A stretch of 64,000 nucleotides of DNA from Phycisphaerae bacterium (GTDB taxonomy: Bacteria; Planctomycetota; Phycisphaerae; JAJVII01), in NCBI GenBank assembly GCA_022072085.1, contig JAJVII010000015.1, positions 62,001 through 126,000 on the forward strand, read 5' to 3'. The notes beneath the pieces are model-generated. The model was not told the DNA's origin and made no database searches. It was given only the letters and a program-made list of their open reading frames with translations. Positions 14,079 to 17,321 of this stretch are shown here, piece by piece (positions within the stretch are counted from its first letter, which is position 1; every line of letters starts with the position of its first letter). The position numbers were made by a program, and so were the translations under genes.

Positions 14079-15116
14079 ATGACGCCCGGCCGGCGTCTGG
14101 CCATTACGCTGATCGTACTGCTGGGCGTCGTGACCGTCGGCGCGGCCGGCTACATCGTGCTGGAGCACCTGAGCCTGCTGGACGCCCTGTTCATGACGCT
14201 GGTCACCGTTTCGACAGTGGGGATGGCCAGCGCGGACCTGGCGGCCAAGCTCGACGCAGCCGGCAAGGCCTGGACGATCCTGCTCATCTTCTTCGGCATC
14301 GGCACGGTAACGATCGCATTCACGAACCTGCTGGCCATGGCCGCCGGCGGAGAGATCCGCCGAATCCTGGGGAGGCGCCACTTGAACGCCCGAATCGCCG
14401 CCATGCGCAACCACATCATCATCTGCGGTTTCGGACGCGTCGGACAGACCGTCTGCCGCGACCTCCAGTCGGCTGACCGTCCCTTCGTCATGGGCGACAA
14501 GGATCCCAACGCCACGGCCTTCGCCGAGAAGCTGGGCTACATCTACCAGCTCGGGGACGCGTCGCTGGAGCAGACGCTCAAGGAAGCCGGCATCGAACAC
14601 GCCCGGGCCCTGGTGACCGTCCTGCCCTCGGACGCCGAGAACGTCTACGTCACACTCACCGCCCGCGGCATGAACCCCGGCGTGGTCATCGTCGCCCGCG
14701 CCGAACAGCAGACCACCATCAGCAAGCTCCAGCGCGCCGGGGCGTCGCGGGTCATCAGCCCGCACATGCTGGGCGCCCGGCGGATCACCGAAGTGCTCGT
14801 GCGTCCGGCCGTCGTCGACTTCTTCGAGATGGCGTCGGCCGGCGTGGATTTGGAGATGGACCAGGTGCAGGTGGCCGCGGGCTCAGAACTGATCGGCAAG
14901 GACCTCCGGGCCGCCCGGCTGCGCGACCGCTTCCACGTCATGGTCGTCGCCATCCGCCGAAGCGACGGGCAGACGCTCTACAACCCCGAGCCCGGCGTAA
15001 CGCTTGCCGCCAGCGACATGCTCGTCGTGATCGGACCGGCCGGCGCGTCGGCCAACATGCGCCGCCTCCAGCAGGTCGGCCTGGAAGCCGGCCCCCCGCC
15101 GACAAGCGAGGAGTAG
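14079..15116 (+). CDS. Two-TM potassium-channel-like protein with RCK (TrkA-N and TrkA-C) domains and a non-canonical filter
   Basis: A 345 aa membrane protein. TM1 covers about residues 7-27, then comes a pore loop (LFMTLVTVSTVGMAS, about 37-51) and TM2 (about 62-85). A cytosolic RCK Rossmann domain follows (IIICGFGRVGQTV near 112-124), then a TrkA-C-like ligand domain (about 255-335). The plan is that of MthK/Kch channels, but the selectivity filter reads TVGMA where TVGYG or TVGFG is expected, so ion selectivity is uncertain. CGGGAGG precedes ATG 14079. It is followed by a tail-anchored protein and TrkH, suggesting a potassium-uptake module in which it may act as the TrkA-like regulator. 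Confidence 0.85.
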   Translation: MTPGRRLAITLIVLLGVVTVGAAGYIVLEHLSLLDALFMTLVTVSTVGMASADLAAKLDAAGKAWTILLIFFGIGTVTIAFTNLLAMAAGGEIRRILGRRHLNARIAAMRNHIIICGFGRVGQTVCRDLQSADRPFVMGDKDPNATAFAEKLGYIYQLGDASLEQTLKEAGIEHARALVTVLPSDAENVYVTLTARGMNPGVVIVARAEQQTTISKLQRAGASRVISPHMLGARRITEVLVRPAVVDFFEMASAGVDLEMDQVQVAAGSELIGKDLRAARLRDRFHVMVVAIRRSDGQTLYNPEPGVTLAASDMLVVIGPAGASANMRRLQQVGLEAGPPPTSEE

Positions 15117-15132: not shown

Positions 15133-15954
15133 ATGCACGCGGGGCGATTACCCGTATACGCCATGGCCGACCCGTCGCCGCCACAGAAGGAAACCGTCAG
15201 CCAGTCGCTGGCCAAGCTGCCGCAGGACGAGCTGATGGCTTTCGCGGGGGACCTCAGACTGGACCTCTCCCGCCACGCCCCGCCGGAGGAGATCGTCCGC
15301 GCGGTCGAAGCCAAGCTCACCCTCATCGAGTCGCTGCCGCGCGAGCGGATGCTGGAGATCGTGATGTGGGCCCGCCGCCCGGTCGAGCAGTCGGCCAGCA
15401 AGCTCCAACTCGCCCGCGAAATCCTCCAGGTCCGCCGCACCAAGTTCGCCGGGCTGAGCACCGAGGCCATGCAGGCGATGGCCCTGCTGCACGGCTGCCC
15501 GGTCGAGCCGGACGACGACCGCCAGTCGCTGCGGCGGAAACTCAAGCACGGCGAAGGCCTGTGGCGGAAGATCCGCCGAAAGCGCCGGGCCCTGGTCGCC
15601 AAGCTGGTCACCCGGATCGTCGGCGACGACTCGGGGGACTACCGGTTCCTGCCCGAGGACAAGCGCCCGCTCTCACTCAAGGAACGGATCGAGGAGGAGG
15701 GCATCGTCAGCGGGCTGGGCGGCAAGCTCCGCGGCGCTGCCGACGATTTCGTCAAGCAGAAGCTGGACGAGATCGAGGCCCGCATCGACCGCAAGCTGGA
15801 GGAGATCGACCAGCGGCTGGCCGAGTGGCGCGACCGCGAGATCGCCAACCGCATGAAGATCATCCGCATCACCCTGATGGCCAGCGTGGTCGTGGCGCTG
15901 CTGTCGCTCGCGTACACCTGGCTGCGCGGCAGCGTGTTCCACTGGCTACCCTAG
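15133..15954 (+). CDS. Unknown tail-anchored, charged protein within the potassium module
   Basis: A 273 aa protein I do not recognise. It has a long, highly charged helical body (Arg/Lys/Glu rich; about 205-240 is likely coiled coil, with DEIEARIDRKLEEIDQRL). A single hydrophobic segment near residues 245-263 is followed by a ten-residue tail, so the bulk should face the cytosol, anchored by the C-terminus. It starts 16 nt after the channel gene and ends 23 nt before trkH, so it is very probably co-transcribed with them. A second Met at residue 11 could be the true start. A role in channel or transporter assembly is only an inference from position. Confidence 0.75.
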   Translation: MHAGRLPVYAMADPSPPQKETVSQSLAKLPQDELMAFAGDLRLDLSRHAPPEEIVRAVEAKLTLIESLPRERMLEIVMWARRPVEQSASKLQLAREILQVRRTKFAGLSTEAMQAMALLHGCPVEPDDDRQSLRRKLKHGEGLWRKIRRKRRALVAKLVTRIVGDDSGDYRFLPEDKRPLSLKERIEEEGIVSGLGGKLRGAADDFVKQKLDEIEARIDRKLEEIDQRLAEWRDREIANRMKIIRITLMASVVVALLSLAYTWLRGSVFHWLP

Positions 15955-15977: not shown

Positions 15978-17321
15978 ATGAAGTTCGTCATCAAGGCGTG
16001 GTCGCGCGCGAAGGAATTCCTGCGGGACGTTCACCCCGCCAAGCTCGCGTTCCTGGGCTACCTCTCCTACATCGTGATCGGGTGGGTGATCCTGTGCGTT
16101 CCCTGGCTACAGAAGGGACCGGGGGTCGGGGCGCTGGACAACCTGTTCATCTCCACCTCGGCGGTCTCGACGACCGGGCTGGCGACGGTGAGCATCGCCG
16201 ACCGCTACAGCTTCGCCGGCCAGGTGGTGGTGCTGACGCTGATCCAGCTCGGCGGCATCGGCTATATGACGCTCGGCTCGTTCGTGATCCTCTCGCGCAG
16301 GACCGACCTGTCGGAGGTGCGGTCGGGCATTGGGCGGACAGTGTTCAGCCTGCCGGCCTCGTTCCGCGTCGACAAGTTCATCCGCAGCGTGATCAAGTTC
16401 ACGCTGGTGATCGAACTGGCCGGCGCCGTCGCCCTCTACTTCATCTTTCGCCGGGCCGGGGCGCCCGACGCGGTCTGGAGCGCGATCTTCCACAGCGTGT
16501 CGGCCTTCTGCACGGCGGGGTTCAGCCTCTACAACGACAGCTTCCTCGCCTATGCCGGAAACTTCTGGCTGGTGGCGGTGATCGCCGTTCTGAGCTACCT
16601 CGGCGCGATCGGCTTCATCGTCTTCGTCGACTACTGGCGGCTGTTCCGCGGCAAGATCTCCGAGGTCACGCTGACCAGCAGGATCATCCTCCGCATGACG
16701 CTGTGGCTGACGGTGGGCGGCACGCTACTGCTGTTCATCTCCGAGCCGTCCATCCAGGGCAAGCCGATCGACGAGCGGCTGATGGCGGCGTTCTTCCAGG
16801 CCATGACGGCCATGACGACGGTGGGCTTCAACACTGTCAGCATTGCGGCGCTGTCGAAGGCCTCACTGCTGCTGATCGTCGTGCTGATGGTGATCGGCGC
16901 CTCGCCGTCGGGGACCGGCGGCGGGCTGAAGACCACGTCATTCTCAGCCATCATCGGCGTGATGCGCAGCGCGATCACCGGCCACGGCGAGGTGCGTTTC
17001 TGGGGCCGTCCGGTCCCCATCGAGCGGATATGGACCGCGGTGGCCGGCCTGGGGTTTTACATCTCGGCCTTGGTCATCGGCACCTACCTGCTGGAGATAA
17101 CCGAGCCGTCGAACTTCCTGGACAATCTCTTCGAGGCCGCCTCGGCCCTGGGCACAGTGGGGCTGAGCATGGGCATCACCCCGACACTGACCAACATGGG
17201 CAAGCTGATACTGATCCTGCTGATGTTCTGCGGCCGGCTCGGGCCGCTCACCTTCGGCATTGCCCTGTTCTTCCGCAAGGGGCTCCAGCCGACGGCCCTG
17301 GACAACGACCTGGCGGTCTGA
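15978..17321 (+). CDS. trkH: Trk/Ktr-type potassium uptake membrane subunit
   Basis: A 447 aa potassium translocating subunit of the TrkH/KtrB family. Four filter-like loops each contain the conserved glycine: STTGLAT near 58-64, CTAGFSL near 180, TTVGFNT near 278 and GTVGLSM near 395. Between them are ten or so hydrophobic helices arranged as four M1-P-M2 repeats. Length suggests the KtrB/short TrkH type. AAGGA lies 9 nt before ATG 15978. It would need an RCK subunit; the RCK-bearing gene two positions upstream is the obvious partner (inference). Confidence 0.92.
   Translation: MKFVIKAWSRAKEFLRDVHPAKLAFLGYLSYIVIGWVILCVPWLQKGPGVGALDNLFISTSAVSTTGLATVSIADRYSFAGQVVVLTLIQLGGIGYMTLGSFVILSRRTDLSEVRSGIGRTVFSLPASFRVDKFIRSVIKFTLVIELAGAVALYFIFRRAGAPDAVWSAIFHSVSAFCTAGFSLYNDSFLAYAGNFWLVAVIAVLSYLGAIGFIVFVDYWRLFRGKISEVTLTSRIILRMTLWLTVGGTLLLFISEPSIQGKPIDERLMAAFFQAMTAMTTVGFNTVSIAALSKASLLLIVVLMVIGASPSGTGGGLKTTSFSAIIGVMRSAITGHGEVRFWGRPVPIERIWTAVAGLGFYISALVIGTYLLEITEPSNFLDNLFEAASALGTVGLSMGITPTLTNMGKLILILLMFCGRLGPLTFGIALFFRKGLQPTALDNDLAV

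Follow-up and report, generated by a model that had tools for sequence, protein, structure and literature searches.

The window analysed here is a 64,000-nucleotide stretch of a Phycisphaerae draft genome (5.49 Mb in 72 contigs). It contains, on the forward strand, the gene of a 345-residue channel protein, P0001, which begins with ATG downstream of a GGAGG-type ribosome site. Between this gene and that of a TrkH-family K+ transporter lies a gene for a 273-residue protein. The features are as follows.

14079..15116, + strand: channel protein P0001 (345 aa), two TM helices and a single RCK domain (open reading frame and translation, Pfam, likeness to MthK, AlphaFold)
14085..14165, + strand: TM1, residues 3-29 (helix in the AlphaFold model)
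14175..14213, + strand: pore helix, residues 33-45, LLDALFMTLVTVS (AlphaFold helix; conserved among homologues)
14214..14231, + strand: filter TVGMAS, residues 46-51 (direct reading; alignments)
14232..14258, + strand: extended post-filter loop ADLAAKLDA, residues 52-60 (alignment with the TLGM-type sequences L063, L068, L074, L076, L086 and L100)
14256..14402, + strand: TM2 plus linker helix, residues 60-108, including the near-invariant hinge Gly73 (AlphaFold helix; alignment)
14412..15068, + strand: RCK domain, residues 112-330, N-lobe (GFGRVG, Asp140) followed by C-lobe (Pfam TrkA_N and TrkA_C)
15133..15954, + strand: 273-aa protein with a hydrophobic C-terminal segment, between channel and TrkH (homologues in the class)
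15978..17321, + strand: TrkH-family K+ transporter (Pfam TrkH, E 1.3e-48)

P0001 combines two elements that characterize MthK-type 2TM-RCK channels, namely two transmembrane helices with a P-loop and a covalently attached cytosolic RCK domain. The third, a tetrameric pore above a gating ring of eight RCK domains, would be expected of it by analogy. Pfam places Ion_trans_2 at residues 12-87 (E 1.3e-8, past the cut-off), TrkA_N at residues 113-228 (E 2.6e-31) and TrkA_C at residues 263-330 (E 2.4e-12). A phmmer alignment with MthK, the archaeal Ca2+-gated 2TM-RCK K+ channel, covers residues 11-320 (E 2.3e-29) and sets TVGMA opposite TVGYG. The AlphaFold monomer model, built on a 59-sequence alignment, reaches a mean pLDDT of 93.6 and shows TM1, the pore helix and TM2. 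MthK chains are its top fold matches in the PDB; the TM-scores are low, probably due to a different placement of the domains in the monomer model. An earlier note on this DNA had described a K+-channel-like protein with two transmembrane segments, with which the Ion_trans_2 match and the model helices agree. It had also spoken of RCK domains in the plural; an RCK is indeed present, but it is a single one made of an N- and a C-lobe. In this domain the nucleotide motif is intact, with GFGRVG and an acid, D140, ending strand 2, and H112, G117, G119, G122, D185 and N188 are invariant in the 59-sequence subset. The top PDB profile match of P0001, and the nearest one of its RCK domain, is GsuK from Geobacter, whose RCK is of the ADP/NAD type. 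Both the motif and this kinship make a nucleotide ligand likely for P0001, by sequence and by analogy.

The selectivity filter is where P0001 departs from this group. Residues 40-51 read TLVTVSTVGMAS and are encoded at exactly 14196-14231. The first half of the K+ signature TxGYG/TxGFG is there, as T46, V47 and G48; Met and Ala then stand in place of Tyr/Phe78 and Gly79 (KcsA numbering), so that both the aromatic residue and the second glycine are missing. Ser follows at a site where Glu prevails among relatives, and the post-filter loop is about three residues longer than in most homologues. Because P0001 has no Gly between G48 and G62, a second filter glycine is absent under any alignment of the loop. 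Direct translation and the MthK alignment thus bear out the earlier observation that TVGMA replaces TVGYG/TVGFG at this place. The same note had allowed for a base-call error, and a sequencing, assembly or frame artefact might seem conceivable in a draft genome of 72 contigs. However, at least three substitutions and a nine-base length difference would have to be explained, the frame is stop-free with full-length homology at up to 48% identity, and Met filters with long loops occur in independent genomes of the same class. Sequencing error was rejected as the source of TVGMA on the strength of the homologues and the number of changes required, and we consider the chance of any such artefact negligible.

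The homologue search covered 397 genomes of the class, 92 of which gave a match, and 392 genomes of the phylum, of which 122 did; scanning other phyla yielded 24 loci. Filters were counted in 122 aligned homologues, with MthK and six sequences of a remoter, mostly TVGYGD group set aside. Gly79 is absent from 89 of the 122 (73%) and present in 33; across the roughly 120 alignable channels it is replaced by 14 different residues, among them Arg (28), Gln (11), Ser (10), Glu (9), Lys (7), Thr (6) and His (5). The filter nevertheless starts with TVG in 104 homologues and carries Glu or Asp at its sixth position in 101, the commonest motifs being TVGYG (24), TVGFR (13), TVGYQ (7), TVGYR (7) and TVGFS (6). 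As judged from these alignments, loss of Gly79 is a trait of most relatives in several bacterial phyla and not of one odd gene, and the idea of P0001 as a lone damaged channel was dropped in view of the 89 homologues that share the loss.

Methionine in the filter also recurs. Besides TVGMASADL in the window it is found in L060 (TLGMRDV) and in six genomes of family f9, whose filters TLGMKADYM, TLGMKATHI, TLGMMADSG, TLGMRVGPA, TLGMTAQDT and TLGMKAGQT all lead into longer loops; more generally, TLGMK, TLGMR, TLGMM and TLGMT filters, mostly with longer loops, occur in other families of this Phycisphaerae-type class. Elsewhere in the family, TVGFRE, with Arg at the Gly79 site followed by Glu, is found in Actinobacteria (L006, L011, L012, L015, L018, L023) and Deltaproteobacteria (L010, L017), where a ring of Arg-Glu salt bridges at the outer mouth is possible. 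A supported clade (L113, L118, L120, L122, L123) has the outer filter cut to TVGA, TVGS or TVGMEG with a shorter loop, and a gene of the NfeD family lies near four of its members (L118, L120, L122, L123) as well as near L110. A class homologue, L109 from genome G093, reads TLNNEIV and is the sole case among the 122 in which the first glycine has become Asn.

The remainder of the pore is strongly conserved. In the 89 homologues that lack Gly79, Thr75 is kept in 100%, Gly77 in 98%, the TM2 hinge glycine in 97%, the pore-helix Tyr in 89% and Thr72 in 84%, and T46 and G48 are invariant in the 59-sequence subset. Ranked by conservation among 330 columns, G48 (G77) comes 7th, T46 (T75) 9th and the hinge G73 17th; position 78 comes 135th and position 79, residue 50 of P0001, 280th. 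Mean entropy over the pore helix and inner filter is 1.23 with Gly79 and 1.25 without it (subsampled), and over TM2 it is 2.11 and 2.12, respectively. Since the entropy equals that of the Gly79-bearing channels, the pore is not decaying in the Gly79-less homologues; by this measure it remains under selection.

On a tree computed with the filter columns left out, position 79 has changed between Gly and non-Gly at least 16 times, which indicates that the Gly79-less state has been tolerated repeatedly. This also bears on the canonical TVGYG homologues that the earlier note would have counted against its reading: TVGYG or TVGFG does occur in 29 of the 122, but these are a minority within a family of such frequent changes. 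P0001 itself was unplaced in a first quick tree. In a more careful tree, made for the Phycisphaerae clade, it falls beside L060 with weak support (82/44), the two lying inside a group of 26 rows of which 24 lack Gly79, and a grouping of P0001 with the six TLGM sequences of f9 is not rejected (p-AU 0.74).

The neighbouring TrkH gene invites another reading, that the pore of P0001 is dead and the protein serves as a membrane-anchored RCK regulator of this transporter. The channel gene is separated by 16 bases from the gene of the 273-aa protein, and the latter by 23 bases from TrkH; given these short gaps on one strand the three genes are possibly co-transcribed and may form one transcription unit. 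Moreover, the window TrkH has no adjoining soluble RCK gene, in contrast to the genome's second TrkH on contig 35, which has its own. Yet this lack is normal, because 27 of 29 TrkH relatives likewise have no RCK gene within about 1.5 kb (a KtrA-type RCK is that close in only 2), and another KtrA-type RCK in the genome could serve in trans. No TrkH was found near the channel in about 100 other homologue loci, read with flanks that reached 6 kb at most and were often shorter, and no channel beside TrkH in the 29 TrkH relatives. A conserved channel-TrkH partnership, checked from the loci of both genes, was thus discarded, and the adjacency is probably a local arrangement as it is not conserved elsewhere. 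A pore kept as a mere anchor would also be expected to drift at the inner filter and hinge, and the strong constraint at these residues argues against it. We regard a dead pore of this kind as decidedly improbable, and the earlier suggestion of an anchor for an RCK regulator of the adjacent TrkH is not sustained.

The 273-aa protein matched no family in a Pfam search. Its homologues occur in 87 of the 397 class genomes, among them G001, the sole further genome of the family, in which the channel is absent. The protein was rejected as a dedicated partner, being common in the class yet linked to neither channel nor TrkH in the 14 flanks read. Clustering of flanking open reading frames gave no universal neighbour of the channel homologues, only clade-level ones: a kinase (14 loci), a glycosyltransferase (7) and NfeD (5). 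The kinase is of the Ser/Thr protein-kinase type, its gene lying at most about 6 kb from the channel in 14 loci of the class, and an unassigned 295-aa protein is found in 12; the loci noted for such neighbours include L057, L061, L065, L066, L071, L072, L079, L084, L085, L086, L092, L097 and others. On contig 56 of the P0001 genome (24000-29689, L144), a gene for an SLC13-like transporter adjoins a KefB-like RCK fragment ended by the contig edge.

Taken together, the MthK architecture, the filter sequence, the family-wide loss of Gly79 with the inner half kept and the conserved pore lead us to think it rather probable, from sequence and by analogy, that P0001 works as a homotetrameric cation channel, gated by its RCK domain, with a half filter and low or moderate K+ selectivity. 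The tetrameric state, ion conduction, the degree of selectivity and the ligand are what we infer from these observations. Without Gly79 the usual shape of the outer filter is unlikely. In the proposed mechanism, the cytoplasmic half (Thr75, Val76, Gly77) would preserve the inner sites, namely S4 and S3 with a part of S2, and the outer sites, with Tyr78-Gly79 turned into Met-Ala and a longer loop, would probably be missing or widened into a vestibule. Monovalent cations would then pass with low or moderate K+ selectivity, as in the single-glycine TrkH/KtrB or the two-site NaK, and opening and closing would depend on a cytosolic ligand, probably NAD or an adenine nucleotide, bound at the RCK ring.

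Several characterized proteins support conduction with low selectivity. TrkH and KtrB are conductive with each P-loop retaining a single filter glycine, the first; all monovalent cations tested pass TrkAH, and in KtrB K+ is seen at S3 with no S1 (PMC12059179). The earlier claim that the second filter glycine is needed was therefore too strong. NaK, with TVGDGN, has S3-S4 only and is non-selective (PMC9822992). GsuK, in which Phe replaces Tyr in an otherwise standard filter, has a PNa/PK of about 0.2 and is activated by ADP and NAD+ (PMC3510474). Weak K+ selectivity of P0001 is not certain, however, because TbIRK is K+ selective (PK/PNa >7) without the standard signature (PMC5429665). P0001 could similarly be clearly K+ selective if its outer filter were rebuilt by the Met side chain, the longer loop and the loop Asp, or if the inner sites sufficed. 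KtrAB, which has a single Gly in every P-loop and accumulates K+ selectively (PMC12059179), would be a second precedent, and on the tree the family members that have Gly79 are scattered among those that lack it, as though the role were unchanged. Against this, lesser changes at positions 78-79 reduce selectivity in NaK and GsuK, and the post-filter acid typical of the relatives is also lost in P0001; we hold clear K+ selectivity to be unlikely. A pore that is permanently closed or ligand-occluded, leaving P0001 as only a sensor or as a damper of other channels by co-assembly, would fit the non-canonical filter, and relatives with TVGAINL, TVGMEG or TLNNE show that total loss of the outer filter is possible. 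Conservation of the inner filter and hinge would be needless in such a protein, though, and as the sole Ion_trans_2 protein found in the genome it has no obvious partner for co-assembly, which leaves this reading only a very slim chance. Among the options that the earlier note had named for the pore, a non-selective one thus fits best, and a closed pore or mere membrane anchor fits poorly.

P0001 can be compared with several known systems. MthK shares its architecture and fold but has the full K+ signature TVGYG, is 25% identical, and its RCK ligand is likely different. GsuK, for which weak K+ selectivity was reported (PMC3510474), differs in having two RCK domains and a filter, TLGFG, that keeps the second Gly. 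MchK/Rv3200c is a 2TM-RCK channel with a reported TxGYG filter (PMC9025972). Members of the SKT superfamily such as TrkH and KtrB resemble P0001 in a P-loop with the first filter Gly alone, as seen in the window TrkH, whose loops STTGLATVS, CTAGFSLYN, TTVGFNTVS and GTVGLSMGI (filters TTGLA, TAGFS, TVGFN and TVGLS) have one filter Gly each. However, each of their chains fuses four unequal M1-P-M2 repeats, and they form dimers with a separate RCK subunit, whereas P0001 is a single 2TM unit with one Ion_trans_2 match. Residues 29-88 of P0001 also hit the NCBIfam TrkH model with 18.5 bits (cut-off 331; E 8.5e-4); this TrkH-like pore match lies far under the cut-off, is absent from the 25 families that most members match, and was given no weight. 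NaK likewise keeps an inner TVG with an altered outer half and has S3-S4 only (PMC9822992), but it differs in lacking an RCK and in retaining the second Gly. The NirBac channels are bacterial 2TM proteins in which the K+ filter is replaced and which conduct non-selectively (PMC4607889); in contrast to P0001, which has an RCK domain instead, they carry a Kir-type cytoplasmic domain, as KirBac does, and unrelated filters, and three genes were studied (PMC4607889). NaKTs of Tsukamurella (LPMGNGPLSP) is a further non-selective 2TM channel with an aberrant filter (PMC5052707), a different one that was reported as specific to that channel (PMC5052707). These known odd-filter bacterial 2TM channels, NirBac, NaKTs and NaK, are single cases or have unrelated filters.

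The TxGYG signature is taken to define K+ channels and to be almost invariant among them, and its second glycine is considered essential. In the open-access literature we found no channel paper on the motifs TVGFRE, TVGYRE, TVGYQE, TVGFKE or TVGFSE no account of a 2TM-RCK family without Gly79 and no functional measurement on any member with this filter, although earlier notice elsewhere is possible. Our tentative proposal, which we rate a little short of evenly balanced, is a widespread, undescribed bacterial class of homotetrameric 2TM-RCK channels with a half filter (TxG, a variable position 79, usually followed by Glu) and non-classical selectivity. If true, this class would parallel, in homotetrameric form, the single-glycine filter of TrkH/KtrB; Gly79 would have been lost and regained many times, and the class would bear on the origin of the one-glycine loops of TrkH and KtrB. 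With about 120 alignable channels in which inner filter and gate are fixed, the filter needs of K+ selectivity become testable in natural sequences instead of point mutants. For the Gly79-less proteins of this family, the label 'potassium channel' given from domain matches alone may name the wrong ion.
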